The notes under the pieces: model-generated
Seen by the model: only the letters and a program-made list of their open reading frames with translations
Told to the model about the DNA's origin: nothing
The model's database searches: none
Made by a program: the position numbers and the translations under genes
Source of the DNA: Euborellia annulipes
Lineage: Eukaryota; Arthropoda; Insecta; Dermaptera; Anisolabididae
Reading direction: 5' to 3'
Length of the DNA: 64,000 bases
NCBI GenBank assembly: GCA_023213315.1
Contig: JAKCPI010012705.1
Coordinates: forward strand, 24,533-88,532
Part shown: one piece after another, positions 3,796 through 49,200 of the stretch
Numbering within the stretch: the stretch's first letter is position 1
Layout: every line of letters starts with the position of its first letter

Positions 3796-4662
3796 TAGGG
3801 ATGAAACGATACGAGTAAATACAAGTACTTACTCGATACTTTTCTTTCGATACCAAGTACTTTTAGAATTGATACTTTGAAATCGAGTACCAAGTAAGTA
3901 TCGATCAAAAATACTCGTATCGATACTCGGTCCATGTACGCGATGATTAGTTAGGCCGGAAGAACATTTACGTCCATTTGTTCTTATTTACAATAGAAAT
4001 AAGTGGAATGGTTTGTACCACTATATTTTAATATTTAATATACAAGTGTTTAACAAGGAAATATTTTGAAAAATTATTATTTTTGTGTAGTAGGTACCTC
4101 TAAAACTGAATTTTTTTCTTATTCGTAATTGTTTTTTTTTTTTTTTTTTTCAAGAACTTGATGTTTTATGGCTGTGGAAATTTAATCAAGATTTGCAGGG
4201 ACTTTGCAGCCAGGAGATTAAATTAAAAAATCTTATTTAAATTTGCCGACGTTTCGGTCGCTAATCACGACCTTCTTTATTATACATGATCTTAGGTATT
4301 TTAATATTCATTGCAATTACCAGGTAAATATACAATTTATTTTTACTTTGTTATGTACGAAAATATTATCATATACTTGTTACTCGGAGGTCTCCGATGA
4401 TGAAGATCGTGATTGGCGACCGAAACGTCGGCAAATATAAATTAAATAAAAGATTTTTGTTTAATCTCCTGGCTGCAAAGTTCTCTTGATAATATCAGCA
4501 CTTACTGCTGTTTTTGCTCATCTTTAATTGTACGAAAAAATTGACCGATACGAGTAAGTATCGATACTTTTCAATCGATACCGAGTAGGTACTCGATACT
4601 TTGAGACCGATACCGGAATCGAGTAAAAGTATCGATACCTCAGCGGTATCGTTTCATCCCTA
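3796..4662. mobile_element. hAT-like non-autonomous element with 8-bp target duplication
   Basis: Terminal inverted repeats TAGGGATGAAACGATAC and GTATCGTTTCATCCCTA are flanked by an exact 8-bp direct repeat GTCCTAGC (3788-3795 and 4663-4670). Both ends carry many GATACCGAGTA-like motifs. An 8-bp duplication points to the hAT superfamily. The interior holds a separate palindrome (4178-4488) and no transposase. Confidence 0.8.
4178..4488. mobile_element. Palindromic element with hammerhead-like core, nested in the hAT
   Basis: The left arm (TTTGCAGCCAGGAGATTAAA ... GCCGACGTTTCGGTCG) is repeated inverted on the right (CGACCGAAACGTCGGC ... TTTAATCTCCTGGCTGCAAA). The GACCGAAACGTC module is present. 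The CTGANGA half is degenerate in both arms (right arm GATGATGAAGATCG). A related half-copy lies at 32210-32325. Confidence 0.75.
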
Positions 4663-4875
4663 GTCCTAGCTTGTCTTTTATAGCCGGGCATTCTTCTACA
4701 TGTCTTCCTTCTTCTTTTTCTTTCTTGCATCCTCTGCAGTATTTGCCTCCTCTTCCCTGGTTTCCTCTCCAGATACTTCCACATCTGGCTCTTGCCCAGA
4801 GTTTTCGTATCTCTTCATTATTTCCTTTCAAATATTCTTCCCCTTCTATGTCATTCTTGATATATTTGTAGTAGT

Positions 4876-8130: not shown

Positions 8131-8647
8131 AAGCGATTTCCAAACTGTGAGGCGCGGACTAGTCTAACAAGAGGAGACGCGAATATTAGCCAAATGAAAA
8201 TAGGAATAAATAAAAAAAAATATTTTTATATAAATTTATTGTGAGGTCTATCTATCTTTGTGCCTGGAAGTATTATTAGGGCCGAGTGAAAAAAGATTCC
8301 AAGACATTTTGCAGTCAAAATTATTTCTTTTATTGTGACGTTTCGGCCACTGGCCTAGGCCATCTCCAGAGCCGGAGGCGAGAATAAATGAAATTTTAAT
8401 TTTGAATGAAAAATGAAATCGCCTCCGGCTCTGAAGATGGCCTAGACCAGTGGCCGAAACGTGGAATCCTGGAACGGCACAATAAAAGAAATAATTTTCT
8501 TGGAATTTTCTTTTGACTCCGCCTTAATATTTTTTAGCATTAAAAATATTTTTTTTGTATTATTTTACAAAATTGGGGAGGAGGGGAGGCGTCATATGAT
8601 TAAATATTTATAAGGGCGCGTTGTAACATAAAGTTTGAAAACCACTG
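8131..8647. mobile_element. Inner hAT-like element
   Basis: Bounded by exact 8-bp repeats CCCTAGTG (8123-8130 and 8648-8655). The right end AAAGTTTGAAAACCACTG is a good hAT end. The left end AAGCGATTTCCAAACTGTG is its diverged inverted partner. It is inserted in the outer hAT and itself hosts a palindromic element. Confidence 0.7.
8284..8523. mobile_element. Palindromic element with hammerhead-like core
   Basis: Arms of about 100 bp. The right arm reads GGCTCTGAAGATGGCC ... GGCCGAAACGT. After GAAACGT the sequence is GGAATCC, so the strand that should pair with GGCT is damaged here. The half-copy at 26299-26405 keeps it (AGCC). Left arm is the reverse complement. Confidence 0.75.
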
Positions 8648-16170: not shown

Positions 16171-16244
16171 ATTCTTAAATAAAAGTTTGAATTGTAACAA
16201 GATATCCACTTAATATATTTAGTATTTTCCAAATTTCTAAATTT

Positions 16245-16722
16245 AGCAGATATGAGTAGGATGGCAGCCAGGAAAGAAGTCAGACAAAAATTTAATCATT
16301 CTTTATCTAATTTTATTTCGACGTTTCGGACACAAATCGTGCCCTTCCTCAGGACAATCGATAGTTAGTAAAATACAGATGGGCGTATTTTGTTTATTAA
16401 CAATATAAAAACACAATTCACGGGAGTGTTTCTTGCTGAATATATTTGATGTCATTCATTGACGCCTTTCGCATTAAAATCTTAAATCTTAATGCGAAAG
16501 GCGTCAATGAATGACATCAAATATATTCAGCAAGAAACACTCCCGTGAATTGTGTTTTTATATTGTTAATAAACAAAATACGCCCATCTGTATTTTACTA
16601 ACTATCGATTGTCCTGAGGAAGGGCACGATTTGTGTCCGAAACGTCGAAATAAAATTAGATAAAGATTGATTAAATTTTTATCTGATTTCTTTCCTGGCT
16701 GCCATCCAACTCATATCTGCTA
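16245..16722. mobile_element. Near-perfect palindrome with hammerhead-like core
   Basis: Two arms of about 220 bp meet near 16480. The right-arm module (16614-16646) reads CTGAGGA, one A, GGGCAC, loop GATTT, GTGTCC, GAAAC, GTC. The left arm (16320-16353) is its inverse. Outer ends carry GGCAGCCAGGAAAGAA and its inverse. Arm identity is high, so it is young or was recently duplicated. Confidence 0.85.
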
Positions 16723-19700
16723 ATAGTTCAGCCATCATCTCAATATTATTTCTAAATTTATTTATCAAAAATAATTAAATAAAATTATTTTTAATTTTTA
16801 AAATATTAAATGAAAAATTTGTTGAAATTTTAAAATATTCTAATAAATTAAATTTTGTGACTATGGGACACCCTGTATATTAATATTTGTAAAGTCCAAA
16901 TGTCCGAAAAGAAGCCATGAATGTTTATTAATTAACTTTACTTACAATTAGACAATTTGATTTATATTCATAAAAATAAAGTTTCACTTTAAAAAACAGC
17001 AAAATTGAAAACACAAAAAAAAAAAAAAAAAAAAAAAAAATAAAAAAAAAGCCAACATGCCCAGAAGAGAGAATTTTGCATGCGTTTAGTGAATTGAGAG
17101 GGGGAAGGGGGGGGGGGGTGGAAGAGGAGGGGAGGGGGAAAGTACTTTTTAAAGAAGTTAAAAAAAGAGAATTTTTTTTGTTAATATTCCAAAAAAAAAA
17201 GAATTTATACATTAAATTTATTTTGAATTTTTTCTTAACAGAAAAAAATAATCACAATTTTATTGCAACATTCCCAAACAAATATATATACGTATATAAT
17301 ATATATATATAAACATTAAATATAAATTTTTGAATTTATAAAAAAAAAATTTCTTTTTTGAATTAGTGCTTTGATTCTCAATCGATTAAAAGAATGCCGA
17401 CCCCGCAGTGAGAATTAAAATCCCAAAGAATATAATCTAAAATGACGTAGTTCTCCGCCACACCGGGAATTTTTTTGAAATCTTTTTCCGTTTCTATTTT
17501 TCTTATTCAATTGAAAAGAACCTCGGATCCGCGAATTATTTCTTGTGCTGTGGGCCTGAGGTTCGCTTCCTGCCCCAAGCCGAAATTAAATTGAAAATGA
17601 CTCGAAATACGTTGCAACCAATAAATATATTGAAACATATCGCCTAGTGTTTTTAATTACCGGCAAAAAAAACGACCAAACTCGCTCAAAATTTTCACAT
17701 ACGCATTGAAGATGGCCGATTAGAGGGACCGAAAAATTTGCAATGAATTGAAGTGGTGAGAGAGAAGAAGTAGAAGTTTTTTCTCCTTATCTTCCTAATA
17801 ATTAATATTATCTATGGATAAAAAGATTTTAATCAGGCTATAAACCTTAAATATAATTTAATTAATTCAGGGGTCAAAGTCGGTCTTGAGCCAAAAAATC
17901 CTAGGGTCAATAAAATCCATTGATTATAAAATAAAAAATTCTATAAATGACTAGAAAGAATTAAGTAGAATAAAAACCAAAGATAATTGTATTTTAAACA
18001 CAAAAATTCTAGCTTTGGCACTTGTAATTACGAAGACATTTGAAAAATTGATAAAAACTTTATAAAAGTTGAGTTGCTTACATAAATAAACAGGAAGAAA
18101 GAAAGAGAAATTTTAAGCATCTTGATTGTTGAATTTCTTGCTGAATACAATAATGAAAAAAAAAGTAAATGACTATTTGAAATAAAATCAGTGGTTAACA
18201 TATAACCTCATGGCCTTATAATTAAAATTTAGGAGAGATTAATACTGAATTTTGGGAATAAAAAATAAGGCTAAGTAATAGGTGAGGTTGGGTATACAAA
18301 AAAACAAAATATATTGAAAAAAATATTTATTTTTTTTAAATATATTTTGTTTTTTAGTATGGACAGAAGAAGAAGGCCTCTCAGCCCCACTTGGTACTTA
18401 ACATTACGTTAGCCCTATTTTTTATTTATTATATTTAAAAGTAAACTCTCCGAGTTGTGCAGATATTTAATTTGTTTTGTACTGAGAAAAATCTAAAACT
18501 CTCCAAATTATAAATTATAATTTAATGAATGAATAAAGTGTATGAGTTTGTTTGATGTTTTTTTTTTTTTTTTTTTTAATAATCATAATTAATAAATTTT
18601 TCAACAATAAAATTCAATGAATAAAATTTAATTTAAAGAATATAAAATTAATTATCTAATATGCGCTTTTTAAACATGGCGCATGGTAAAATATTTTCAA
18701 TTTTTTGTTGTCCCACTTTTTGTATTCAGCAAGGGAATTTATTATAACGTCTTTCTAGTAGAACGATCCAAGAGTTCATGCCCGTGTCCCGATACAACCT
18801 AACCTCTAAATAAAACGTAGAAGAAAATAAGAAGACCGGTATCAATAATAGATTGAGAATACACACATTAATACAAACGAAACAAATATAAATATTTTAC
18901 AAATTAATTGATTTTTAACAAATCTTTTTTATAAAAAGTTCATTTTTTTTTGTTTGTTTCAATTATTATTTTCTATGTATAAAAAATATAAAAATTTATC
19001 CGCTATCAAATTACAAAAACGTATTTATATCACAAAGAAAAAAAAAATCACTAAAGTGAACAGCGTAGCTTTTGTTCTCCAAATTTCATCATCCTATAAA
19101 AATACAAAATCATTTATGATAATTTAATTAGATTTGATACAATTTGCATGCAACGGAAAGAGAGATGAAGTGTTAAAAAAAAGTTAATGTATGGATGATT
19201 AAAAAAATTTTTTTTCTATATTGCAGTGTCATATAATAAAGACATTTGAACCTCGTTGTGGGAACAATAATCACTTTTTAGTAAAATAATTATGAAAAAC
19301 ATATAACCAAGTATTTAATAATTTAAATAAGCGAATTTAAATTATTTAAAAAATTGCAATATAGTGTATTATAACAACTTTAAGAAAAAATATAATTAGA
19401 TTCGTATAGAATGAATTTTATTCCATATCACTAGCAATATGAGAAAGAAAAAGGAACATGCATTAAAAAGATTTTATTAATATAAACAAAAAATTATTAT
19501 AAAATATAAGGATATAAAAAAAGTTGGATTAAAAAATAAAAAGGAAGAAAAGGATTTCCATCAAAGCGGTAAATTATACAAAATTAGGTTAATAAATTAT
19601 GACAGGTTAATCTGGAACATAAGAAAGAAATTATGAATAAAAATGATAATTAAAAGGAAAAGAAGAGAATCTAAATAAAAGATTTCTTTTTTTTTCGCCT

Positions 19701-20039: not shown

Positions 20040-20275
20040 TGATTTTCTGTTTATTTGTAAAAATTACAACGTTTCGGACTCTCATTCTGTCGCCTTCTTC
20101 AGGTACAATTCAGCTAAGATTATAAAGGTTGTTACATCTCAATTGAATTGAGATTGTCACAGATGTAACAACCTTTGTAATCTTAGCTGAATTGTACCTG
20201 AAGAAGGCCACAGAATGAGTGGCCGAAACGTTGTAATTTTTACAAATAAACCACAGTTAAACCGAAAAATCAAAT
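20040..20275. mobile_element. Palindromic element with hammerhead-like core
   Basis: Right arm module (20195-20235): TAC, CTGAAGA, one A, GGCCAC, 7-base loop, GTGGCC, GAAACGTT, GTA. Stem II is six perfect pairs and TAC/GTA can close stem I. The left arm is the inverse with a few changes. Arms continue into AATTTTTACAAATAAA. Confidence 0.8.
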
Positions 20276-21238: not shown

Positions 21239-21340
21239 ATTTCCAATAAAGATTTTCATTTTTTTAATAAAAACAATGAAATAATCAAAAGTAGAAAACG
21301 CATAGGTGGGACTTAATATTGACCCTCACTGTACATAAAT
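21239..21340. mobile_element. Half copy of TA MITE (CAGTGAGGG type)
   Basis: Carries one arm, AACAATGAAATAATCAAAAG, ending ACCCTCACTGTA. It matches the right halves of full copies at 40624-40833 and 61779-61996. The other arm is missing. Confidence 0.65.
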
Positions 21341-31200: not shown

Positions 31201-34200
31201 AAGATCCATTCAAATATATTTTCAATCACATATATAATATTATTTGATCTTCAGATTTTAAACTATTTTCAAATAATATTATATATACATGAAACAATTT
31301 TTACCATCTGTTGGCTAATTAAGGTGATTGAATGGGTCTTCTAAAATTGAGGTAAAAAAATAACAAAAAAGAATTTTTGTATGTATTTTAATTTTTAAGA
31401 CAAGTTTTTTCTGTAATTAAAAAAAAAACAGGTAATATTGTAATATGTTTTGTGTATGACATGGTAAAGAGAATTTATATTTATTACAGGCCCTGATGAT
31501 GTCTGATAGGACGAAACTTAGATGGCGCATCGAGTTGGCCGATAAATTTTAATAAAGAATAAGAGAAATTTTGTTTTTCCTTATTAAAAACTACAAAATC
31601 CATCTACCTAAACCTGGAATCTGTGTTAAGCTTAGATTAAATTAATGAATTGGAAGAGGGTCACAATCAAAAAGAGAAGCTTTATTTAATTTCAGTAGAG
31701 ATTCTCTTTACTATCATAAGCCTTCTCAGGGGTACAGAGATCTTAAAAGGAAAATAAAAGGCCGAGCAGCTAGGTTTATTTCTTTAATAGAGAACCCACA
31801 GCGACGTTTCGGTCGACTATGCGACCATCTTCATGGCTAGAGATCAGTCATTAGAAAAACCTCTTAAGTTCTTTGAATTCATTACGATCTATCAGAAATT
31901 TATATTGACTTCTGGCGCTGAATGCATTATATCTGATAGATCGTAATGAATTTTATGAAATGTCCGTCAAAGAACTTAAGAGGTTTTTCTAATGACTGAA
32001 CTCTAGCCATGAAGATGGTCGCATAGTCGACCGAAACGTCGCTGTGGGTTCTCTATTAAATAAATAAACCTAGCTGCTCGGCCTTTTATTTTTTTACTAC
32101 GTATTGATTCAGCTATTCACCTCGCTAACATCTTAAAAGGAGTTGCCTTGTGTGATTATACAATACAAGCGAACAATTTCAATGTAAGTATACTTAAAGT
32201 TTTATATCTATGGATATTTAATCAGGATCCGAAAGACTTTGTATTCAATTAGGAAACTAAATTAAAAAATCTATTTGATTTTTTATTCGCTGACATTTCG
32301 GTTGCTAATCCCGACCTTCATCAGGGCAAAGGGGGGGGGGTAAAAGGGTAATTACCCCCCCCCTATATATATTAACATATATATAGAGGTAAGAGGAAGT
32401 AAAAAGTACAGATGTGAATGTGTAGTTGCAGATTGCAGATACCTATGGTTGTTTCGCAGAATTTTCCCTCAGCAACTTCATTAGCTAGATTGGCACCCAT
32501 TAAGACGCAGACTTCAATTTTTAATAATTTCTTGATTACATTGGAAATTAAATCGATGCCTCCGCCTTCAGGACGATCAAATCCCTGAAGACAAAATTTA
32601 AAGAAAAATATCAATTACAGGGTTATAAAAAGTATAAACTAATCTTTCTCTAATCCTCAACAATAAAAATCTTAGAAATCTTAAACTGATAAGCAGGTCT
32701 ATTCTTTAAAATTTAAAATAAACAAATGGGTTTTAAAAAGTAATGTAGAAACAATCAGCGTTAAAAAAAATGCTATTCTCTAAACAAAGTTTTAACAGCG
32801 ACGTTAACATGTTGCTTTTATTTCAAAGCTATCAAAATCATAACCTTACTTTTTAGGTTAAGGTCCCCATTTTTATTTTAAACACGACGTTAAAATATTA
32901 AAGCCACCCCCTAGACATGGCATTAATTTTTAACACTATTTACTAAATGTTAACGCTTTGGCTTTAAAGTTTTTGTTTACAGAATAGCTATTTGAGGCAA
33001 GGAAGTGATTTTGAATAGCATTTTTTTAACGCTTACATTACTTTTTAACACCTACTTATTTATTTTAAATTTTAACATCTTTTTTAGAGAATAGACCTGA
33101 AGAGGTGTTTAGTTTAGGCCTATAGATTAAAACCCCCACGGGAGAACGTGAGTGGGACTTCCGTGAGTGGCTCATTTTTCGTTTTTAAGAGTTTAGGTCA
33201 AGAAAAAAAAAAGAAAAGAAAAAGAGAAATGAAAATTTTTGAAGATATTTAAATTTTTTTTAATTTAATTCTTGTGCTAGAGGGGGAGGGGAGGGGGTTC
33301 AGTGGTTCACATCAAAAAATGTAATTCAACTTCCAAGTCTTAATTTTTTTTTTTTTTTTGGAATGGGTGCATAAGGTCCGAAGACCTATAATGACCAATA
33401 GTCACATGCAGCCAGGAAGAAAATAAAAACAAAAGGAGAAGCATAAAGGGGAAACTCAACTGCGGGAACTGAGAAGATGCCTGTTGAGGTTAGACTTGAA
33501 AGTCTGAAGATTGTAGGTTTTGGGGAAGATAGACGCAGGGAGCTTGTTCCAATCACGGGAGGTCATGGGGACAAAGGAAGAATGAAATTGATTTGTTCTG
33601 TTAGTCGTGATCTGAACAGCATAGGGATGCTGGGAAGATGCCTCTCTTGTGTTCCGTGAATATGTTGCATTGGGTGGGATAATTGATTTTAATTCGGCAG
33701 AGCATTGACCATAGTAATACTTGTACTTGGTAATGTTTGCCGGAATATAAATATAAATCAAATTTTTAAGTGTTAATTTTTAAAATTTTACATTAAAAAT
33801 ACATTTTTTTTTTTTTTTTTTGAAAAAAAATATTTTTTTAATTACCTCCTTTACCCCCCCCCCTTGTATCCGCCCTTGTTGTGTACGTGTGTATGTGACT
33901 GAACTCCTCCTAAACGACTGAATCGATTTTGATGAAATTTTTTGGGAGAGTCCCGGAAAGGTTATGATTCACCAAAAATCTTAAGTTAATGAATAATAAT
34001 AATTAAATGGTGAAGCTTTGAGAGAATTTTCTTTCTTGGCTGCCTCTGCTTCCATACTTCGTTTAATAAAGATACACAGCCACAAATTACAACTTCCAGT
34101 TCAGTTGAAATAAATTTTTGTCGTATGAGACAGGATGTGAACCCTTGACCTCAAGTTCACAAGAAACTAATTAAGGTCAAGGGCGCCAATTCAAAGAATC

Positions 34201-37200
34201 AAAACTAGAAATTGCCTCAATCACAAGGAAAGATTTTCAAAGTCTGCCTATTGAACTTCCTATGAGTAGAGGGAGGGGGAAGGCTTGAGTTAGGTAGTTA
34301 ACCATCTATTAGAATACAAGCGCCTGGCTGGCCAGAAAAGCAACCAGCAACACTGGCAAGTCGTTGTGGCTGACTATAATGAAGCCAGTTAATTTCATTT
34401 TCTTTTAATTGTCTAATTGACTGCATCACATCAAACTCAATTCATTTTGCAATCTCTTTTAGAAGGCTGTGAGGAAGCCATTAATTATGTGCTGATTAAG
34501 CAAATTAACGACCAACACAAGCAACTAGAATTTTATTTTTACTGCAAAGGCGTTCAACAGTTAAATATTTTATGTAATTTTTTTGTTTAAGGTCTTTTTC
34601 GGCATCTAAGGCCATTTAGACCTACACCAATGGTTCTTAACCGAAAGCTCCGTAAGCTTTTTGCAAGTTTCTCAAAATTATGAAAGATATTTAACTTCTG
34701 GGATTTCAATTACTCCAGAGTTAGATTGATTTTTATTCTCCTAATCTAAGAAGATTAAAAAAAAAAAAACCAAATGAAAAATAAAATTAAGCCTTGGTTG
34801 TTTAAAAGAAAGGAATTTTTTTAATGAAATTTGAACTTTAATCAATAGGTTTTTTTTTTTTTTGTTCCAAGTTCAATTTTTGCAATGTTTATGAGTCATT
34901 AGAGATAATTATGAATAATAATAAATTAAAAAAAAATATTAGTACTCAGGATTTGAATACTCATCAACATCAAATCTAGTATTCGCTGCGAAATTCCTAT
35001 AACTTTTTAGGTTATTAATTCTTAAAGTTGACGATTTCTCTCATAGGGAAATGTATAGAGAAACATTTATGTATTCTTTACATTTGTGTATTCCATGAAT
35101 GTAAACAAATCCTCAAGCAGGCACTGGTTTGGAACGGAATAATAATAATAATTTTCTTTTCTGCCCACGGGGCTTGGTCTGAGTTGGTAGCGTGTCTACC
35201 TTCTATACCGAACGTCGCGGGTTCGGACCCCAGGCAGTCCGATGATTTTATTTAAGGCATTTGGATACCAAATGACAAATAGAAATGCCTGGACTCCCAA
35301 TAGATACTATCATATATAACGGTTATCGTCAAAGTCTTATATGGCCTAAGTTGCCGAAAAAGACTGTGTGAATATGTGTGTGAGTGTGAATGAGAAAAAA
35401 GAGTGTTAAAAAAAAAAAAATTATTTTCATAATTAAGAAGAAAAGCTGGAGGGGGGTCAGGGGGGCTAAGCCCCCTGTCTAGAAAGCTTCTAATAATTAA
35501 AAAACAGGCGGGCTCCCCTGTCTAGACGTGAAGCCCGCCGAAGTCTGAAAAAGATGGGATGAGACTCGCATGCAAAAAAAAAAAGGTAAAATGATTTGCA
35601 AAAGCGGAAAAGGTGCGGAAAAAAAATTTAGTCTCGCTAAAAGAAAAGGGGGAAAACGAGGGGAAAAAAAAAAAAATTTCCGCAGGGCGGAAAAAAAAGG
35701 AAATTTCAAAAAAAAAAAAAAAAAAAAAATGATATGAATTTTTTATACGAAATACAAGTTCCGGTTTCGGTAACAGTTTCGGCTGAAAATCTTGTTTCGG
35801 TCGGACCCTACTAAATAGACAATATTTTTTCGATTTACCGAAGTTTAATCTGAAAAGTGCGGATTATCGCGGTTCGATTGTATTAAAGTCATTTTTCGCC
35901 TGCCGCAGTTTAAGATAAATATTAAACACACTCAATAATCAAATATTAGTTTAAGTTATTAAATAAATTATTTATTATCTTAAATTGAATTATATAATAA
36001 TAGAACTTTGAAAGCGGCTGAATGTTCAAGAGTGTTTAAAATAATGTCAACACAACATGATAAATAAAGGGGGCGGGGGGTATCTTTGGTGACAAATAAC
36101 TTCTCTCTTTAAGGTCAAGTTCATATTATATAAAGCAGAGGGAGTTGAGGTCCGTGGCCTATTTATATCAATCAAGGTGACAAAAACAAACAAGCACCTC
36201 CTGTATAATGTCAATCATTTTCTTGTTACGAAATTATAAAACGCAACAACGAAAAATGTTAAGACGATTATTTAAACGCTTACAACGAGATAAGATTATA
36301 TAATTATTTATAAATGAAGGTCTTATCGATTATTATTTCTGTAAACATCTTAAAAAATGTATTAGGAAGATGGATGTATGAATCGAGTTTTTTTTCGCTC
36401 TGAGGCACACGGCCTCCTGGGGACTAATTTTAATTTTAAAAAAAATTTTTTTAAACAATAAGAGCAAGCAGCCAGGTAGTTAGTCTCCACGAAATGAAAC
36501 TCTCTATTGAGGAAACAGTATCGGTTTTAATGAAATATAACCATCATCAGTCCATTTATCGAGCTGAAAGCATTGTTGAGTTAGAAAAAATCAAAATAAC
36601 AAAAAAACTATTTGAATATTTACAAACAATATACCGGGTGTCCCAGGTGTCACGCACCCCATTGTTGGGATCGAAAGAGAAAAATATTCTGAGCCCAAAA
36701 ATCCATGTTTGGAATTTTTTGATTAAGTAGTTAATTAGTAATTAATTAATAAAAGTGACCAATCAGGAGCGCGCTACAGAAGAATAGAAAATAAGTGGGA
36801 TAGTAGTAGATAAATGACAGAGAAGCTTCACGTAAATTGTTTTGGTTAATTAATAAAATAATAATTATTATTATTGAAGTACAAAAGTAATAATCTCAAA
36901 ATAAATGACAGAGAAACATTAGGTAAATTATTTTTGTTAATGAAAAAAATAATAATTTTTGAAAATTATTATTATTATTTCATTCATTAACCAAAACAAT
37001 TCAGCTGAAACTTCTCTGTCATTTATTTTGAGATTATTACTTTTGTACGTAGGTGAAGAATAAAACGGCAGATGTTGATATTATTTTTTATTAGTTAAAT
37101 CTCTAGGCTATCGATTTCGTCCTTATTGACATCATCAGGCCAGCTGGAAACAAGATATTTAACATAATTTGACAAGAGTAATATACTATAAAAATTGCAC

Positions 37201-40200
37201 ACAAAAATTCTTTGATTAAACATTTTACCACATTAGTAATAAACAAAGTACATATATTATGAACCATATTCTTTTCTTAGAATTCATCTTCCTTCATCTT
37301 CCTCTCCAAATAATATTTTTCAAAATATAAAAAAATTAAAAAAGAATATGGTTCATAATATATGTACTTTGTTTATTACTAATGTGGTAAAATGTTTAAT
37401 CAAAGAATTTTTGTGTGCAATTTTTATAGTATATTACTCTTGTCAAATTATGTTAAATATCTTGTTTCCAGCTGGCCTGATGATGTCAATAAGGACGAAA
37501 TCGATAGCCTAGAGATTTAACTAATAAAAAATAATATCAACATCTGCCGTTTTATTCTTCACCTACGTAATCATATCAACTGCAGAAATGGAGCAATACA
37601 TATATCATTACTTTTGTACTTCAATAATAATAATTATTATTTTATTAATTAACCAAAACAATTTACGTGAAGCTTCTCTGTCATTTATCTACTACTATCC
37701 CACTTATTTTCTATTCTTCTGTAGCGCGCTGCTGATTGGTCACTTTTATTAATTAATTACTAATTAACTACTTAATCAAAAAATTCCAAACATGGATTTT
37801 TGGGCTCAGAATATTTTTCTCTTTCGATCCCAACAATGGGGTGGGTGTGCGACACCTGGGACACCCGGTATATAACTGATACCTACAGTGTGAATTCAAA
37901 TGACAAAGCATTGAGTTATATTACGGTGTTGTCGGTACCTGGCTGCTTGCTCCTTTACCCTCTTATTGTTTAATAATATAACAGCCACTTTATTTCTTCA
38001 AAAAAAAAATTATTTTTCTTTAAAAAACACTCACACTCACATACACACAGTCTTCTCGGCAACTCAGGCCATATAAGACTTTTTACGATAACCGTTAATT
38101 AGTAATCTATCTATTGGGGGGGGGGCGGGCCGCCCCTTTTTTTTTTTTTTTTTTTTTTTTTTCCGGCGGGTCCAGGCATATTTATTTAAGCCATTTGGTA
38201 TCCACGGCCCGAGGGCAATTTAAAAAAATTCTTTTTTTTTTCTTCAATAAAACAAACGTCGGGGGGCCTGTCAACGGAGAAGGCCAACAGTCACCACAAT
38301 CGTTATAGTTAAGCGATGACAGCTCGGGATCGGTGACCACGAGCAATCAGCATGTGGAACGTCCCTCGGTAGCCATCGATACTATATATTTTAATTATAT
38401 GAATCTTCTTCTTTCTTAGCTTTATTCCCGTAGTGCGAGGTTGGTTTTTTTTGGGACAGGAAGAAATAGAACAGGCCGGCCCGTCGTACGGTTGAAAATA
38501 TAAAAGGAAGGGACAGACATGTAAAGAGCAGGACTGCCAGTCCCAGCTCGGGTAGCTCGTGTTCGCCATCCACGTACCCACAAGATGAGCAAAAATTATA
38601 TGAATAAATTAAATTAATCCCTAAATGGCCTCTTTAGTCGAAAAGGGTTAAAAAAAAAATAAAATAAAACAAACACCTATCGTCTATCCGATTAAATTTC
38701 TATCGAAGGGGGGGGGGGGGGGGAACAAAATGATCTGAGGAATTGAGTTTCCCAGCCTTGCCCCGTACAGTCGGCGCCACAAGTGCCTGATGTGCTCGAG
38801 AGTGGATCTTTGAGCTTAGCCACCGGAAGTGTTATCTTCAAAGCTTTTTTTTCCCTTAAGTTGCATTAAAAAAAGATGATGTGACTAAACTCAAGGAAGC
38901 CTTGAGAGAGAAACACAGACACGCCGGCTGTACCAAAGTCCCCAAAAAATTATAATATGTGTACTTGGGAAGGGACACAAATGTCCTCTCAAATCCCGGA
39001 GGATTCTGACTATATAATTAAAGAAATCTTTTAGAACACCCAGCAACTAACTGGGAATGGAAAATTCAAGGTCAAATAAATCCAAATCCCAAAGAGTAAT
39101 TAAATATTCAAGATAAGGATTTTGTGTCTATGTTTGTTTGAAATTATCTCTTGGCTTAAAGATAAACCAGAAGAGCCAAGAAGAGAGAGAGACTCACCTT
39201 GATAAGCGATAGAGCGACAGATGTGGGCCGCACTTTGCCCACTAGTGTTAAGCATATGGAACGAACAAATTGATGGGGCACTACAAAAATAAGGACATCG
39301 GCCTCTTGAGCTGCTTCTGTTACATCTGGGATGGCAACCTAAAAACAGAAGAAGCAAAAAGGGGGATTAAAGCCACGACATACACACTTGAAACTTCACA
39401 TTGAGAGCAAAAGGGAATCAAAGTTAAAGCCCTCTATTTGGACCCTGTTATGCATTAATGTGTCAAGCGCCAAAAATAATTCAAAATTGAGTTAAGCCCG
39501 GAATATTGTTTCAAATGCTTTAATTAATAGTATTTTTTATGAAATATGTCCTAAAAAAATTTATATTTAATATTACTTGCACAATTGACAAAAAAAATTA
39601 TATATAATCCAATGAAAACAAAAAACTTTATTGTTAATTTTCTCAAAACTCGGTATGTGGCGCTTGACACACGAATACTTAACAGGGTTCATTTAATTCC
39701 TCTTAAAATATAAAACATTTATTTATTTTAGATCTCAGCAATCATTAAGAACTTCAATTATACTTTATCTAAGTGCACAATTTAAATTTTATATTGAGAT
39801 TTTTAGATTTTTTCAAATTTTACTTTCTCTTACCTCTATATATGTTAATATACGGTATATAACAGTTATAGAGAGAAAGTATTGGATTCATGTCAAAAAT
39901 TCGATGTCGAGATTTTGATGGATATACACGTTTTAAGGTCCCCTGAAAAAAGTGGTTTTCGCAAAATGGTCTGTCTGTGTGTGTGTGGGGGGGGGTGTGT
40001 CTGTGAACAAAATATCTCAACGAACGGAAAGAGCTAGGAGGTTGAAATTTTATATTTAAGTTTGATACCCCCTTGGGACGTGACACGAAGCTTTTAAACA
40101 AAACCAAAGAGTACTAGTACTTTATTGATGTACTTTTTTCTTTAAAATTCAAAAATCAATTATTTATTAGATGCTCTTTAAAATGTATATTCTCATTTTG

Positions 40201-43200
40201 CCATTGAAATATTCGAAGACCACTTTAGTCTTGAACTTCATAAGAAGGATAGAATAAATGATAATGAAATTTAAATATTTTCCCATGTTTATAAATTTTA
40301 CATCTGTTGTGAAAAGCACAGTACACAACTTCCGGTTACCGAAGGTAAGAGAAAGTTGTGTGCTGTGCGACCTATCCACCAGTTTTTTTTTTTTTTTTGC
40401 ATTAAGGAACTGCTGCATTCTGGAGGATTAGTATTTAAATTCGGACATGGTCCATTATTACAACGATTAACTACCATAATTTACTATCCAAAAAAGGATC
40501 AACAAAAAACCCCAAAATAATTACTTTTGGATTTGTTCCACTTTTGCTTTGAACCAATCATATGAAATTGCTCAAATTTGTTAAAATAATTAATAGACCA
40601 AAAAATTTAAAATTTTGACCGTACAGAGAGGGACAATATTAAGTCTCGCCCATGCGTTTTCTACTTGTGATTATTTCATTGTTTTTATAAAAGAAAATGA
40701 AAATCTTTATTGGAAATTTTCTAGGTTTGAACCATGAAAGTTTCCTTTAAAAAATATATAATATTTTTTTTTAAACAATGAAATAATCACAAGTAGAAAA
40801 CGCACGGGCGAGACTTAATATTGTCCCTCACTGTACATACTAATAAAACACTCGGTTATCTATTTCAAGAAAATTATTAATTTAATTGAAATAGACCATT
40901 TTTCTACTTTTTTAAGTCTTAAGAAAAGGAAATCTCAGGGAGAGATTTTTTTTTCAAGGTTATTTATTCTAGAAGGAAAGGCGGAAGAAATAGGTTTAGG
41001 AAATTGATCGGGATATGGAGGTATACCAGTATAATAGAAATAAATTAAGATTATGTTAATAGCAATAAAAGAATAAATAGAAAAGAAAAAAAAATCAATT
41101 CTAATTATTATATAAGAGAGACATTTTAAATTTACTTCCTAAATAAATTCCATTAGATTATATCATTGGCCTAATGAATTCGAGAGATAATTTTGGAATG
41201 CCCTATTAGAAAATATGGCTGAATAAATACTCAATGTTTACTTTCTCTTACCTATATATGTGTAATATAAGCATATATATTGATATATATATTTAATTGA
41301 GGTGTATAGCTGATAATATGATTTATTTGAGGTTCAGGAATTCTCCAATGAGCAACGCAGCTAGTTGTTTTTTCAATTTTTATTAATAAATGCAAAGTGC
41401 CAGGGTCAACGTTTCGGTCGCATATAGGACCATCATCAGGGCCAAGCCATTGTCAATGTATTATTCCTCATGGTCATATTGGTCAAAGAAATTATTAACA
41501 ATGCAATAGACTCAATGACCAAATTATTAGAACCAGTGTGTTATTATGGACTGAGAGCGAGTGAATCATTCACTCGCTCTCAGTCGAAACGTTGGCCCTG
41601 GCACTTTACATTTAATAATAATTGAAAAAACAACTAGCTGCGTTGCTCATTGGAGAATTCCTGAACCTCAAATAAATCAAATTATCAGCTAGAGAGAGAG
41701 AGAATTAGAAAGTTTTGAATTTAGAATTTAGAATTTAGATTTAGATAGAATTCATTTAAGGCCACTGCCTCTTAGAGAAAGTACAAAAGGTGTGTAGCAA
41801 ACAGATACAAGGCGGTGGTACTAGTCGCTATCAATTTTCATTTTAAATAACAGTCAATTGAAAAAAACATATCAAATAAATTTTATTTTTAAAAAAAAAA
41901 AAAAAAAAATTTAAATATAAATTCTAATAAATAATACAAATGAAAATAAAAAATCTGGTGTGACTGGCGCACAGCACACAACTTTCTCTTACCTTCGGTA
42001 ATCGAAAGTTGTGTTCTGTGCTTGTCTCACCAGATTTTTTGTGTCGACATGTGTTTAGTTTCCGACAGTACAGTATATTCGATTTTCAAGATGTAAAATT
42101 TATAAGTATAGCGAAATATTTATATTTTGTTACCATGGCAACCATTTCTCCTATCTTTTCTATGGAGCACAAGAGTAAAGTGGTCTTCAGAAGATTTCAA
42201 TGGACAAAATGAGAATATACATTTTATTGAGAATCTAAAAAATAATTGATTTTTGAATTTAAAAAAAAATCGTTGGAGCAAATTTAGAGAAAATCGAAAA
42301 AAACTGAAAAAGTGCATCAGTAAAGTACTAGTACTTTTTGGTCGATTTTGTTCAAAAGCTTCGTGTCACGTCCCATGGGGGTGCCTAACTTGAATATAAA
42401 ATTTCAACCTCCTAGCTCTTTCCGTTCTTGAGATATTTTGTTCACAGACACGACAGACAGACAGACAGACACACACACACACACACAGACAGACCATGTC
42501 GCGAAAACCACTTTTTTGGATTCAGGGGACCTCAAAACGTGAAGATCCATCAAAATCTCGACATCGAATTTTTGACATGAATCCAATACTTTCTCTCTAT
42601 ATATATATTACATATATACATAGGTAAGAGAAAGTAAAATATATAAAAGAATGATAATGAATAAAAAACAATATTCGCAAGACCAGGAGATACCGGAGAT
42701 CGCCCCAGGGAGGGCCATCTTACAGCACTATATTAATCAATGGTGCTCATAACGTAGTCAAATAGACATTTTTTAAATGTACGCAACCTTTAATCGATCT
42801 AATCTCACATGGCAAAGAATTCCATAGCCTTGAAGATGACACTAAAAATGACTCCCCAAAGGATGTCGTTCTATGATTTGGGATCAATATTTGTCCCTCA
42901 TCAGAGCGCAGCAACCTAATCCCAGCCTCACTCCTGAATTTAAAGAGGTCGTAGAGATATTTAGGGCTTTTGTTAGCGAATAAATTATAAAGGAACACTC
43001 CCAAAAAGAAGCGTCTACGGGCCTTTAGGCGCAACCATCCCAATTTCCGATAAAAAGGTGTAATGTGCTCATAGATTGGGACATCAAAAATAAATCTTAT
43101 GCAAGCGTTGAGAACTCTTTCCAGTTTAAGATTCATTTCACCAGAAAGGCCACCATAGACAAGACACCCATAATCGAAATGAGGGAGGATGAACGTCTTG

Positions 43201-46200
43201 ACCAAATGAACCCTTATATTGGTAGGAAAGAGCTCCGAGTTCCTTCTGAGCTGATATAAGATTTTATGGACCCTATTTGAGATATGCCCTACGTGGTCCC
43301 TCCAAGAGAGAGAGAGAGAGAGAGAGAGAAAGTATTGAATTCATGTCAAAAATTCGATGTCGAGATTTAGATGGATATACACGTTTTGAGGTCCCCTGAA
43401 TCCAAAAAAGTGGTTTTCGCGACATGGTCTGTCTGTCTGTATGTCAAGAGCAGATACAAGAAGGTGGTGGTAAAGTGGGTAATTCGAGAGATATTTTTTT
43501 TACCTCCCCCCCCCCCCTCGGTTGGAAATTTTTTTGTTTTTAATTTTATTTTGATTTATATATATATATATATTCTGGTAAACAAGTACAGAATGCACCT
43601 TTAAATTAAAAAAAAAAGAAAAAATTGTGTGCTGTGCGACCAGTTACACCAGATTTTTTTCCCTTTTTTTATTATATTTAAATTTGTGTTGTTTGTTTGG
43701 ACCTAACCACCGAGTGCTCGTGCCTCTAAACGGGTTGTTAATAAATAAATTTATTTAAATGTTTTTTCCCCTTTCGGCTACTGAGGCCATTTAGGAGTTT
43801 TGCGGTATATGGTTAGAAATATGATTTGATTAGAAGCCAAAAGGGCTGTCTGACTGATAAGTGTTCGTAATTTATTAGAAAGATAATTCTAATCTATATT
43901 TATAGGTTTTATTAATAAGATAAGAACAACATTTAGAAAGTTTGAAGAGAGAGAGAGATAAATAATTTTATGGAAAAATTTTATTATTTTCTCTCAAATT
44001 GTATCAATAGGCCTATATAAATAGAAAATTGTAAAGTCCATTACAAGATGACTCGGTTTCGAATCCCGCTTATTGCAAGAAATTCAATAGAACGGAGTCT
44101 AATGAGGGGGGATCAGGTGGACTTCTGATTACCTATACCTTTTCAACATCAAATACTTTTCTATTTGAAAAAAAAATTATAAGTATGTTAAATAAGCAGG
44201 TTTTTTCACAAATTTTGCCGCCCCAGGCGCGTGCCTAGTTCGCTTGTTCGTAAATACGGCCCAAATTAGTTATTAAGAAACTTTTGAAAAGTGAATATAT
44301 CACAATCAAAGGTATCCAAGAATTGAACAAATTCTTTCTCGAGTGTGGAAGTGGCTGTGATTAATATCTTAGAAGATTTGCAGGAGGTGGCAGCCAGGAA
44401 GGAGCGTCTCCAAAACAACGAAATTCGTGACGTTTCGGTCGGAATTTATTTGACCCTCATCAGGCAATCAGACTACAATAGATTTTTATTCATAATTAAC
44501 ATTATTAACAGTTAATATACAGTAGAGTCCCGGTAATCCGAACCTCGCTAATCCGAACTCTTTTTGCGTACGATTTTTTTTTTTTTTTTTTAAGAGGAAT
44601 ATAAATGAAAATTAGACATTAAAGGAACTTTATTTTATTAAAAAATACGAATTATAAAAAATAGAGTTTAATATCACCGACAAGTTTCACGGTTTACAAC
44701 GTTATAAATACGACTTTATTATCAAAATTAGCTAATTCAAGCTTACAATTCCGGTTAATCCGAACTTCCCGATAATCCGAACGACCCTCGGTCCCAATTA
44801 GTTCGGATTAACGGGACTCTACTGTATTGCAATGGCTGTTATTAGTAAGTAAAAATAAAAAATAGTATATATTAACTGTTAATAATGTTAATTATGAAAA
44901 AAAAATCTATTGTAGCCTGAATGCCTGATGATGGTCAAATAAATTTCGACCGAAACGTCGCGAATTTCATTGTTTTGGAGACGCTTCTTCCTGGGTGCCA
45001 CCGCCAGCCCTTCTTCCAAGAAAAAATTCTACTTAACTATATTATGCATAAATATATTCGTATTTGAAATTCCCATCCCCTCTAAGAAACAAGAATGACC
45101 ATTATTCGTGGTGTATATATGGTTAGGCCCGTGAAGCCAGGGCTTAGGGCGGCAAAATTTAGATTCGAAGAAATTTCAGACTCAAATTTAGTTATAGTGA
45201 CGGCGCGGGGGAAGAGAGGGGCGGCATATTAGAATATTAGTAAGGAGGGGGTGGCAAATTAAATTTTGCCCCTCCTAACAAATCTCCTAGTTCCGGCCCT
45301 GATTGATAAGATTTGAAATTTTTTTTTTATCTTTCAATTTACTCTTTGTATAAATAAATTGAAATAATCTGTTTGAATAATATTGCCATCTGGCATATTA
45401 AATGTTGACTTGTTTAAATTAAGATTCAATCAAGGACAGCAACTAATTATTTTTATTAGCTAGAAAAAATTTGATTTCTCTCCGAATATTCAACGCCCCC
45501 CATACCCAAAAAAAAAATATTTTTTTCAAAGATAAAAAAATCTGGTGTGATTAACCAACAGCACACAACTTTCTCTTAATTTGTGTACTGTGCTTTTCAC
45601 ACCAGATTTTTTGTGTGTGTCGAGATATATTTAGTTGCCCATAGCACCTCAGTTCCAAACTTGTCCACGCGATTCATAGATGGCCGCTAAAAATGCTTCC
45701 ACATCAGTAAAGTGTAATTTAAACAATTTTCACGAAAAATTTCACTCATATACTTTTTAAAGAGCATAAAAAAAAATAGCTCATTTATGAATTTCAATCA
45801 AAATCGTTGCAGAGAAAAAAACTTTTTTGGACTCAGGGGACCTCAAAATGTGTATATCCGTCAAAATCTCGACATCGAATTGTTGACATAATCGCAATAC
45901 TTTCTCTCTGTATATTACATATGGGTGGGGGTCATTCCATGCCAAATCGACAAATTTTTTTCCTGACCCCCGCGGATTTCGCTGAAAATTTCCTATCTTT
46001 TTTCTACCCCTTAAAAGACATTTTTGAGAATTTTTTCAAATTTTTTTATCCAACTAAAAAAAAGTTATGGATTTTTGAAAAAAACTGTTCTTTTTTTTTA
46101 AATAACTATAACTTATTTTAAAATTGATATTTCGGAACCCCGCAAGACTATAAAAACTTTGTTTTTTAATGTAGTTTTCAGAAAAAAATACAAAAATTAT

Positions 46201-49200
46201 TTTAGAAGCCCGGATATATGAAATATTTCAGTTTTTTTGAAAAAACCATAATTTTAGTCCGACCATTTTTTTTTTTTTTTTTTAACTCAAAAAAAAAACT
46301 TCAACAATTCTACAATTATCCCCCTAATTTCAAGATGTGCCGACGATCGCTTCTATTTTTTTTTTTTTTGTTATAAAAAAATTTTTCTTGAAATTTGGTT
46401 TATTTTACGTAACTTTTTTATGAAATTTTTTCAGCTTTCTCGTGAAACTTAAGAAGTTGAAAAATGATATTTTATTCGAAAATTATAAGTCATCATCTTA
46501 CTAAAAAATGTTTTTTTTTTCAGTAAAGTACGAGACTGAAAAAAAAAACAAAACTTGGAAAAAAATTTGAAAAAATTCTCAAAAATGTCTTTTAAGGGGT
46601 AGAAAAAAGATTTTCAGCGAAATCCGCGGGGATCAGGAAAAAATTTGTCGATTTGGCATGGAATGACCCATATATAGCTAAGAGAAAGTAAAAAAGTTTT
46701 ATTAGAATTTATCATTTAATATTCTTTTATTATTTTCCCGTATACGAAATTAGAGTCCAAAAATTCAATCTCTGAGTACATTTTTGAAATTATATCTGTG
46801 TGGGACTTAAAAATGCAAAACCTGTCCATAATCATACAGATACAATCACAAAATAAAATAATCAGTCGTTTTTAATTAAAATTTTAAAATATTGTTAATC
46901 GGTAATGATGCAATTTGGATAATACATGTGCGTGAATATATAAATAATTATAAAGCCCTAAATGGGGATTACATAACAAAATTTAATATTTTTTGAAATA
47001 TACCATCAAATATTAAAAAAAAAAAAAAACTTTCCATCGTTAAACTGGAAAATATTTGTATAGCGAGTATATCATTCAAGGTCGAATGATGGAATGTTGT
47101 TCCAAAGAAGGGCTCATATTGAATGCTGATTATTGGATGGAAATTTACTAAGGGAGAAGAGAGAAAACAAACCGGTCCTAGGGCTGCTAGCGACTAGAAA
47201 TAACTAGGAATTTAGAAATTGAATTTATCGATTGTGTAACAAAAAAAAAAAAAATACTAATTCCTTTTCAAACATATGTAAAATGAAAGAGATAATCTAT
47301 TTTCGCGCCCTAAACAACTTGCCGAGAGCTTATCAATCACTTATCGTATTTTGTTTGGATAACAAAAAATTCGTAGGCAGAAACGCCTACGTATATAAAA
47401 ATGTTTTGTATTATTTTAAAAATTAATGTCCCCTTCATAAAACTTTCTTTGCATACTCGAAATAAGCGTGATTATCTCAAAAAAACTGGACAGTTTTCGT
47501 AAAAAAGTTTAGGAATAAAAACTGTTTAAAATATGTATTCTCTCATAATAAAACAAAAAAAAATGAATTACAAAATTGGATAAAGTACCATTTTAGTAAA
47601 AGAAACACATATTCGCGATTTCGTTGTGTTTTTAAGATATTGTGATAATTTTTATTGAAAGGAGGTATATAGCTGAGTGTTGATAATCAAATAGGAAGAA
47701 TAAATGAGCAAGCAGCTAGTTATATTTCAATTTATTAATAAACCAGGGCCGACGTTTCGGTCACATATGGGACCATCCTCAGGGCCAGGTTAATGTCTGA
47801 AATTAGGTGGGGGCGAAGGGGGGCACTTGCCCCCTCCACCCCAGGCGCTTCAAGCCTTTGGCGCCCCTGGATACCGCCCTAGGGCATCTAAAATATAGCC
47901 CACGGAAGGTGATTTTATCATATTCTTTCGATAGATTGTCGAAAAAATTAAAGATTTCTTTAAAATTATATTACAACTTAAACAAACGGCGCCCTAGTTG
48001 AGTTTTGCCCCCTCCGCCCTCAAAAGCTAGTTACGCCGCTGTTTCAGACATTAACCTGGCCCTGAGGATGGTCCCATATGTGACCGAAACGTCGGCCCTG
48101 GTTTATTAATAAATTGAAATATAACTAGCTGCTTGCTCATTTATTCTTCCTATCTAGAGGTTGAATTTTTTTAACGATTACAATACTTTCTCTCTGTACG
48201 TGTGCATAGGTGGGAATCGTAGATTGGGAAGATAAAGAGAATAAAGCCAGCCTCCTTCTCTCTCACCGCTTCAATTTATTGCATATAAACAATACATAAA
48301 AGGAGCAGGCAGTGAGATAATCAATCTCCAAGAAGAAAAACTCCTCGTTAAGGAAATAGTTTCGGCTTTAATTAGATAAGGCCATCTTCAGTTAAATTAA
48401 AGCCGAAACTGTTTCCTTGACGGAGTTTTATTTACCTGGCTGCCTGCTCTTTGTATGTATTGTTTAAATACAACAGTCATGCTTAAAATCGTCACAGAGA
48501 GAGAGAGAGAGACAGAGAGACAGACCAATTTGCGGGACCCACTTTTTTGACTCAGGGGACCTTAAAACGTGTATTTCCATCAAATCGAATTTTTAACATA
48601 ATCGAATACTCTCTCAGTATATATTACATGTATAGGTAAGAGAAAGCCAAATATTTCGGCTCCTATACAGGGGCCATCCATGGGCGTACCCAGCGAGGGG
48701 CAGGGGGGGGCAGCTGCCCCCCCTAGAAGCAACAAAAAAAAAAATTAAAGTTTATAAAGTGATGAAACGAAACAAAATTGGTGGTTGGCGAAGGGGAATG
48801 ATTCTTTTTGTTAGGACTCGAGGGTTTTTAGGCCTTTAATTCGAAGGCTTTACCCCTCTATATAAAAAATAGCTATGTCACAATCTGGAGGACCATGATC
48901 TGCCCCCCCTGGACGACCATGATCTGACCATGCCCCCCTAGATTTGATCCTGGGTACGCCCATGGGGCCATCTTTAGTGAATTTTCGAGGAGATTGGCAA
49001 AGGTATAAAATAGGCCTAATTGAGAAAAAATTAGGCTTCGTGTCTAGTCGTTTTTTGCCAGTATATGATCTAATTAAATAGTCACATGCAGCCAGGAAGA
49101 AAATAAAAACAAAAGGAGAAGCATAAAGGGGAATCTCAACTGCGGGAACTGAGAAGATGCCTGTTGAGGTTAGACTTGAAAGTCTGAAGATTGTAGGTTT

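Follow-up and report, generated by a model that had tools for sequence, protein, structure and literature searches.

The question raised by this stretch of DNA, a window of 64 kb (the whole stretch analysed) from the 903-Mb genome assembly of Euborellia annulipes, is what kind of element accounts for a series of palindromes that share one small module. The sequence-only reading, made earlier from the letters of the window, described the module as CTGANGA followed by one extra base, a hairpin and GAAA, and likened it to the core of the hammerhead ribozyme. Judged by its sequence, the module is shown here to have the make-up of a minimal type I hammerhead, i.e., CTGANGA, the extra base, stem II, GAA, a self-complementary stem III, H17 and stem I. 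The same hammerhead lies beside GIY-YIG genes elsewhere in the genome, and hence the window elements are best read as head-to-head pairs of pseudo-long terminal repeats (pLTRs) of several families of Penelope-like elements (PLEs), devoid of an open reading frame (ORF). We put the probability that they are hammerhead-bearing Penelope-like pLTR insertions at about 90%.

All 13 inverted pairs listed in the sequence-only reading were present (4.3, 8.4, 16.5, 20.2, 22.7, 29.1, 31.3, 31.9, 37.3, 41.5, 44.7, 47.9 and 48.4 kb), and so were the split pair at 23.2/27.7 kb and several halves, including those at 26.3 and 32.3 kb; two further copies, at 20.7 and 36.5 kb, had not been listed. Wherever both arms carry the module, the left copy is on the minus strand and the right copy on the plus strand, i.e., the two read outward, head-to-head. 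At 41.5, 29.1 and 48.4 kb, one arm ends, as judged by eye, within the module. The arms had been called largely unrelated, which must be amended for 8.4/26.3, 4.3/32.3, 31.9/41.5/47.9 and (weakly) 22.7/44.7, all of which are related. The loose pattern CTGANGA-N(8-30)-GAAA matched 32 times in the window, against 3.94 expected, and none of 100 shuffles gave as many. Four of the 32 matches (2409, and 3540, 27068 and 42190 on the minus strand) are copies of a dispersed repeat of another kind, TCTTCTGAAGACC..TTTACTC..TGTAC..CATAG, which satisfies this loose pattern, and some others look like chance. A model, R1, was built from 15 window modules, those at 29.1 and 37.3 kb being excluded for their longer stem III, and it found 31 places in the window at E<=1, of which 27 had E<=0.015. 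Of these 27, 15 are training rows, and among the others are opposite-arm partners, the 36.5 kb copy and the degenerate pair at 4.3 kb. The scan missed the modules at 29.1 and 37.3 kb.

The helices were analyzed in 17 modules, one per element or half with opposite arms excluded, which were positioned by their core rather than by the helices. CTGANGA was perfect in 15 of them (the exceptions were 31.9 kb, with A for C3, and 20.7 kb, with A for G5), and the extra base, given as T or A in the earlier description of the module, was T in 14 and A in 3. Stem II, said to pair in most copies, indeed formed 60 of 68 Watson-Crick pairs when one base was skipped after A9, but only 22 when none and 24 when two were skipped; with partners swapped the value was 43.6±2.6, and 0 of 20,000 permutations were as high. 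Stem I had no role in the choice of the modules, and its control was the swapping of halves between elements. In the exact hammerhead register, 46 of 68 pairs were formed, compared with 21.7±4.0 in the swapped sets (0/20,000 permutations). The excess was also seen when the three elements with a hand-chosen stem III were omitted (35/56 vs 18.7±3.8), with a stem III fixed at 4 nt (40/68 vs 21.3±3.8) and after thinning of related groups (38/52 vs 16.3±3.6), and shifting the register lowered stem I from 52/90 to 16-29 (18 rows, both 8.4 kb arms included). In a MAFFT alignment of 15 modules (29.1 and 37.3 kb were excluded since they misaligned), 86% of the cells were paired vs 62% in shuffles, the covariation score was 0.633 vs at most 0.164 with partners slid, and 33 cells were changed on both sides vs 11.9±2.7 in shuffles.

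Stem III is not formed in cis in the window modules. In 14 of the 17 it is a self-complementary tract of 4-8 nt (ACGT in 11; ATAT, ATCGAT and ATACGTAT in one each), so that two copies would have to share it, and such a tract would be expected if two hammerheads had their stem III in common. Lunse, Weinberg and Breaker reportedly described in 2017 hammerheads that 'cleave RNA as dimers'.

The textbook rule that stem II starts directly after A9 does not hold here, one extra base being found in the 17 modules. When places with up to one core mismatch and a stem II with 4 or more pairs, G-U included, were counted in the window, 21 had one extra base, none had no extra base and 2 had two, whereas the means of 40 Markov sequences were 2.6, 2.3 and 1.6, respectively. 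In the whole genome, the strict pattern CTGANGANGG-N(8-24)-CCGAAACGTY gave 41,014 matches in 903 Mb and its reversed version 0; without the extra base there were 313, many of those listed being readable as an extra G before GG. In 198 kb of contig C11, an exact core with a stem II of at least 4 pairs was found 14 times with one extra base, 0 times with none and 2 times with two (Markov 0.1, 0.1 and 0.05). The window-built model finds 35 modules in these 198 kb at E<=0.01, about 1 per 5.7 kb; by this comparison the window is rich in modules but not unique.

Stem I was replicated outside the window in the first 30 loci listed with the strict pattern, which are not a random sample and whose stem I sequence is unconstrained by the pattern. 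Over all 30, 85 of 120 pairs were formed vs 38.4±5.2, and over the 24 left after dropping six pair partners, 66/96 vs 31.3±4.5 (16-32/96 when shifted). Head-to-head pairs accounted for 23 of the 30 places, and 7 had no partner. The lack of stem I/II covariation across copies had been named as a result that would refute the hammerhead; covariation was found in the window and, for stem I, in the genome, and the architecture is borne out by stem I/II covariation in register, by the genomic replication and by the self-complementarity that stem III retains in its variants.

The extra base had been the main caution of the sequence-only reading. It does depart from the textbook core, but it is nearly fixed and is also seen in hammerhead-like sequences of phages, which argues for a variant core rather than against a hammerhead. 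These viral sequences serve as precedent only: a pattern scan of viral contigs gave 84 places, about the chance number by our estimate, of which 33 had a stem II of at least 4 pairs and 3 of the 33 also a stem I. Contig L041 has type III hammerhead-like sequences with a single extra T after A9 at 883-928, 1408-1453 and 2281-2324 (-), and two sequences of this contig align to Rfam Hammerhead_3 with 34.2 and 27.0 bits (cut-off 48.5), the extra base being shown as an insertion. An extra T is also present in viral contigs L065, L031, L027, L035, L029, L069, L038, L003, L034 and L042, in what look by eye like type I hammerheads with a full stem III. At the Rfam gathering level, nothing was found in 12 phage contigs with hammerhead-like extra-base sequences. 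A viroid hammerhead with an extra core nucleotide, located after A9, was reportedly described by De la Pena and Flores in 2001; it is alike in that nucleotide but is a full hammerhead, unlike the window modules.

The assignment to PLEs comes from genes outside the window. Of 710 candidates in the genome, 150 were scored against PF01541 (GIY-YIG), which gave at least 118 matches and open frames of up to 852 aa. Three of these at least 118 genes were examined over short stretches, and in all three a hammerhead is located downstream of the gene on the same strand:

Contig C15649, 329 nt after the stop codon: GCTGCA-CTGATGA-T-GGGT...ACCC-GAA-ATAT-T-TGCAAA, 31.3 bits.
Contig C4744, 581 nt after the stop codon: TAGGTC-CTGATGA-T-GGTCC...GGATT-GAA-ACC...GGT-T-GACC, 14.6 bits.
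Contig C4577, 423 nt after the stop codon: CTCA-CTGAGGA-A-GGCT...AGCC-GAA-ACC-CGAC-GGT-C-TGAG, 16.7 bits.

By eye, all three have the extra base and four perfect stem I pairs, and two of them a small stem III hairpin of 3 bp. In C15649, the pLTR has a copy upstream of the ORF that is 100% identical over at least 301 bp, both with the hammerhead, and the middle of the frame, 400 codons without a stop, is a reverse transcriptase (RT; PF00078, E 2.9e-13); a PDB search with this RT fragment gave no match. In C4744, the module occurs again before the ORF and the flanking pLTRs are identical over at least 200 bp, and in C4577, inverted and direct pLTR fragments upstream of the ORF join inside the hammerhead. 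PLEs are defined by an ORF with an RT and a GIY-YIG domain and by pLTRs in direct or inverted orientation (PMC3846280, PMC11167929). Such an ORF was found in same-genome elements bearing the module, without one in the window, and the pLTRs are direct at two ORFs and inverted plus direct at the third. Furthermore, nine contigs have two PF01541 matches 0.3-5 kb apart in head-to-head orientation, the lone tail-to-tail pair listed being 9.3 kb apart (by eye). The PLE link suggested by the sequence-only reading is thus upheld by three same-genome GIY-YIG genes with a downstream hammerhead, two of them in identical direct repeats and one with an RT, and its remark that paired inverted copies fit the variable pLTR order of PLEs agrees with the window pairs and with the genomic places described above. 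The retrozyme, which it had mentioned as another carrier of hammerheads, was rejected for the window elements, their units being head-to-head and not tandem direct repeats.

The ends of the elements bear on how they were inserted. Target duplications were analyzed for 13 elements against 156 control pairs, and convincing ones were found in 4 of the 13, at 16.5, 31.9, 37.3 and 31.3 kb; duplications of 12-16 bp were matched by 0.6-3.2% of the control pairs. These elements and a fifth with readable ends, all head-to-head, are:

16246..16747 (502 bp), the 16.5 kb element: hammerheads 16313-16359 (minus) and 16607-16653 (plus), 45.9 bits per module with R1; 238-nt arms, 98% complementary; 27-nt tail on the right arm; 13-bp duplication ATTTCTAAATTTA at 16233-16245 and 16748-16760.
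31752..32129 (378 bp), the 31.9 kb element: hammerheads 31796-31841 (minus) and 32002-32047 (plus), R1 matches of 39.9 bits; 38-nt tail on the right arm; 12-bp duplication ATCTTAAAAGGA at 31740-31751 and 32130-32141.
37049..37603 (555 bp), the 37.3 kb element: modules starting at 37138 (minus) and 37477 (plus), stem III ATCGAT, missed by R1; 230-nt arms, 100% complementary; 37-nt tail on the right arm; 15/16 bp duplication at 37033-37048 and 37604-37619.
30900..31637 (738 bp), the 31.3 kb element: hammerheads 31016-31057 (minus) and 31486-31527 (plus), 30.2 and 30.6 bits with R1, stem III without self-complementarity; 13/14 bp duplication at 30886-30899 and 31638-31651.
44323..45014 (692 bp), the 44.7 kb element: hammerheads 44422-44470 (minus) and 44918-44966 (plus), 39.2 and 47.3 bits with R1; apparent nested insert in the loop; 51-nt tail on the left arm; 8-bp repeat TCCAAGAA at 44315-44322 and 45015-45022, alone not above controls.

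Measured from A9, the arms end at 101/128, 77/115, 84/121 and 84/135 nt in four of these five, and at 139/145 nt, a difference of 6 nt, at 31.3 kb. In the four, the longer arm is the tail-bearing one (one-sided tails of 27, 38, 37 and 51 nt), so that tail-bearing arms end 115-135 nt and the other arms 77-101 nt from A9. PLEs optionally carry a tail of 30-40 bp on one pLTR and have short target duplications whose length varies, and both traits are seen here. In six tail-bearing arms (4.3L, 16R, 32.0R, 41L, 44L and 47L), the conserved TGGCTG or TAGCTG pairs perfectly with a downstream CAGCCA or CAGCTA; since 31.9, 41.5 and 47.9 kb are related, this tail helix amounts to few independent cases, with one covarying pair.

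In an anole PLE, the element protein cuts and extends both strands, reverse transcription has an internal start, usually 111-118 bp inside the ORF region, and the tail is the stretch between the two starts (PMC11167929); the window counterpart of that distance is the 115-135 nt between A9 and the tail ends. The window copies are best read as 5′-truncated PLE insertions, severely shortened to their pLTR ends. In the insertion proposed, the protein would make staggered cuts, ∼8-16 bp apart, in the two strands of an AT-rich site, and both 3′ ends would prime reverse transcription on the element RNA at one of two starts, ∼77-101 or 115-135 nt downstream of A9. Synthesis would halt within some hundreds of nt, and joining of the two cDNA ends would leave a palindrome with the hammerheads facing outward, a tail on one side and a target duplication. 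We lean slightly towards such two-ended priming, in which each of the broken DNA ends is extended. Since the hammerhead of the three genes examined is 329-581 nt past the stop codon, truncation within a few hundred nt removes all the coding sequence, and there is no need to postulate a separate non-autonomous family for any window copy. A broader proposal would be that two-ended insertion is the dominant Penelope product here and has given tens of thousands of pLTR-only palindromes, its signals being the hammerhead with an obligatory extra base and a downstream TGGCTG/CAGCCA or TAGCTG/CAGCTA stem-loop whose 3′ strand lies in the tail, with reverse transcription starting on either side of that strand. 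This we hold tentatively, at somewhat short of even odds.

Several results speak against the elements being hammerhead-bearing PLE insertions, or against parts of that reading. The Rfam scans of the window, which had been set beforehand as a test able to refute the hammerhead, gave nothing at the gathering score, and none of the 22 sub-threshold matches was a hammerhead. This silence weighs little, because the hammerheads beside the GIY-YIG genes escape Rfam too (no hammerhead up to E 5 in the pLTRs of the three genes). The window itself yielded no PLE gene, either among 8 frames compared with Pfam or in a regular-expression search for the GIY-YIG motif; this search, which also covered L085-L114 and the 198 kb of C11, gave no credible match, the single loose one being a 39-aa window frame. 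In addition, no window family could be matched to a particular full element when compared with the pLTRs of the three genes examined, and the matches of the three-gene stretches to window families come from sequence beside the pLTRs. As to the fold, pairs changed on both sides were not in excess (6 vs 4.8 in shuffles; 83/500), stem III is not self-complementary in 3 of the 17 modules (ATGT, ACTT and ACTA), and H17 is G in the right copy at 8.4 kb. G-U pairs (10) were not clearly above A-C mismatches (7), so that this comparison does not show strand-specific (RNA) selection. In energy folds of 7 modules, monomers gave parts of the fold and 5 of the 7 dimers formed an extended duplex instead; the inter-copy stem III appeared only in the 29.4 kb dimer. 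Nine of the 13 elements have no convincing target duplication (the 8 bp at 44.7 kb are within controls and in eight none stands out), and the tail helix was weak when tested over 29 arms (own 4.34, swapped 4.08). Finally, cutting by the anole PLE hammerhead depended on the presence of the protein, and insertion in vitro did not require the hammerhead (PMC11167929).

Among the rival explanations, the one closest to the PLE reading keeps the same elements but makes the palindromes by self-priming of the cDNA (fold-back) or by copying of antisense RNA, as proposed for Penelope elements of rotifers. This explanation is favoured for the head-to-head pLTRs of Adineta vaga (PMC3846280), and inner-junction palindromes are seen by eye at 41.5, 20.2 and 16.5 kb. 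However, four of the five readable elements have a one-sided tail with a shorter arm (77-101 nt) on the other side, which looks like two starts, and the anole protein acts on both strands; the arm ends at 31.3 kb, within 6 nt, do not discriminate between the two routes. We consider this route unlikely. Doubtful, too, is the idea of independent non-autonomous families, a Penelope counterpart of miniature inverted-repeat transposable elements (MITEs), that multiply as palindromes by means of a PLE protein supplied in trans. It would suit the window families that recur without an ORF elsewhere in the genome (26.3 kb with L106/L107, 20.2 kb with L088), the 23 head-to-head places out of 30, and copies with an ATG at A9 whose frame from there is at most 57 aa. 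Nevertheless, plain truncation yields the same ORF-less product given the position of the hammerhead past the stop codon, and the PF01541 matches on nine contigs show the head-to-head geometry too. That these are DNA transposons with long terminal inverted repeats, the hairpin motif being an accident, is highly improbable in spite of their long and highly complementary arms. In some arms the module is cut short, and it also occurs in identical repeats beside GIY-YIG genes; a terminal-inverted-repeat DNA transposon or MITE was rejected on the variable duplications (8, 12, 13, 14 and 16 bp) and the asymmetry of four of the five readable elements. A chance or compositional artefact, i.e., a loose motif picked by eye, could appeal to the absent Rfam hammerhead match but is refuted by the enrichment, the permutation controls and the empty reversed pattern, and is hardly conceivable.

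Returning to the PLE reading, the sequences suggest that the hammerhead RNA is probably able to cut itself, and the source elements are probably selected for the fold, since diverged families have retained the helices. Two hammerheads of the source RNA would pair via stem III and cut after H17. Each strand of a palindrome has one sense hammerhead, so that no dimer can form within its own transcript; the palindromic copies are probably end products rather than sources.

Published PLE hammerheads lie in pLTRs, have a minimal or absent helix III, are dispersed in non-coding DNA and follow a dimer logic (PMC7761336, PMC6155905). The window modules, as read here, resemble them in these respects and differ in that nearly all copies have the extra base after A9. 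Penelope elements of Adineta vaga show head-to-head pLTRs, an optional 31-bp tail, duplications of 8-10 bp and junction palindromes, and solo pLTRs and sequences captured between solo pLTRs are also mentioned (PMC3846280). The likeness extends to the pLTR orientation, the one-sided tail, the short duplications and the junction palindromes, but the Adineta vaga elements described mostly keep ORF sequence, whereas those of the window lack an ORF and are densely spaced. PAc (Poseidon of Anolis carolinensis) carries its hammerhead at the pLTR/ORF junction and uses AT-rich targets (PMC11167929); on the reading given here, it is alike in these features, in the two starts that delimit the tail and in the cutting and extension of both strands. 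PAc is arranged in tandem, and palindromic pLTR-only copies are not mentioned in the excerpt of that paper, whereas the window copies are palindromic. Metazoan retrozymes are likewise non-autonomous, hammerhead-bearing and of type I, but form direct tandem repeats with units of 150-450 bp (PMC7229834), in contrast to the head-to-head window units.

Published work has already described dimeric action of PLE hammerheads as well as inverted pLTRs and tails. Here the association is unusually dense and regular, and specialists would be interested in this density, in the core insertion, which is nearly fixed, and in the readable ends with two start sites. The role of PLE ribozymes has been called a mystery (PMC7761336). 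The questions touched are what maintains a hammerhead in PLEs and why their insertions come head-to-head with a one-sided tail. With over 40,000 strict copies from many families, the genome provides a natural mutational scan of the motif, in which the extra base after A9, a mostly self-complementary stem III and stem I are held, and the many copies with readable ends could serve to work out how both DNA ends are extended.

The other modules and elements of the window, with bit scores from R1, are:

47691..48153, the 47.9 kb element: head-to-head, hammerheads 47744-47789 (minus) and 48055-48100 (plus), 50.9 bits each; 112-nt arms, 100% complementary; tail-like sequence on the left; A9-T-G to H17 spans 26 nt; target duplication looked for at the flanks, none found.
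41307..41691, the 41.5 kb element: hammerhead 41401-41446 (minus), 48.8 bits; right arm breaking off within stem II at a 37-nt palindrome; tail helix present; target duplication looked for at the flanks, none found.
22479..22837, the 22.7 kb element: hammerheads 22531-22579 (minus), 49.6 bits, and 22737-22785 (plus), 39.7 bits.
20049..20251, the 20.2 kb element: hammerheads 20061-20109 (minus), 35.0 bits, and 20191-20239 (plus), 46.8 bits.
20703..20752 (plus), single module at 20.7 kb: 34.2 bits; stem III ATAT, stem I TGTA/TACA; no inverted partner in 20300-21300.
8330..8470, the 8.4 kb element: hammerheads 8330-8376 (minus), 33.5 bits, and 8424-8470 (plus), 41.3 bits.
4241..4436, the 4.3 kb element: degenerate hammerheads 4241-4287 (minus), 27.0 bits, and 4390-4436 (plus), 22.7 bits; tail-like sequence with the tail helix on the left side.
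23189..27735, the split pair: hammerheads 23189-23230 (minus), 38.1 bits, and 27687-27735 (plus), 45.1 bits; arms related (78% over 184), with a copia-type retrotransposon and the 26.3 kb half element between them.
26303..26349 (plus), half element at 26.3 kb: 45.0 bits; family of 8.4 kb.
28773..29443, the 29.1 kb element: module at 29380 (plus), stem III ATACGTAT, missed by R1; stem I pairs 5/5; left arm breaking off in loop II.
32285..32331 (minus), half element at 32.3 kb: 40.9 bits; related to 4.3 kb.
36508..36557 (minus), degenerate module at 36.5 kb: 18.7 bits, E 0.015; followed by a CCTGGCTGCTTGCTC stretch as in other copies.
48297..48475 (bounds by eye), the 48.4 kb element: hammerhead 48349-48398 (minus), 36.4 bits; palindrome centre inside the module.

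Other sequences lie within or near these elements. An element with ends CAGTAGAGTCCCGGTAATCCGAAC / GTTCGGATTAACGGGACTCTACTG-like is nested in the loop of the 44.7 kb pair (∼44520-44830) and resembles a DNA transposon of the pogo/Tigger type. In the loop of the 29.1 kb pair, 28833-29360 reads by eye like the 3′ end of a long interspersed nuclear element, followed by an (AATA)n tract, and it may be a nested insertion or a template switch. Within the split pair, copia-type gag and integrase domains occupy 24258-26300 and end beside the 26.3 kb half element. A weak module match at 17699-17745 (plus, 20.8 bits) is followed by sequence that resembles, by eye, the 3′ part of the 48.4 kb family. The longest frame of the window has its best relatives, over short parts, in termite, stick insect, cockroaches, sawflies and wasps.

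The inverted repeat at 54339-54993, which starts with ATATGGGTCATTCCACGTCAAAT, has 91-nt arms (96%) and no paired hammerhead module. Another palindromic element without the module, with the inner sequence GCGTTTTCTACTTGTGATTATTTCATTG, is present in two copies (40621-40836 and 61805-61973) and is perhaps a DNA-transposon derivative. The sub-threshold Rfam matches were mostly to microRNA families over palindromic or repetitive stretches; those at 16446-16519, 20109-20190 and 60887-61095 (for example mir-1256, E 2.4e-9) seem to reflect palindromic inserts only. Such palindromes are a trap for microRNA annotation, and the Rfam hammerhead models miss the class found here. Elsewhere in the genome, a direct tandem triplet of hammerhead modules with 113-nt spacing is located at C5140:26561-26819 (minus), a possible retrozyme-like or satellite arrangement.

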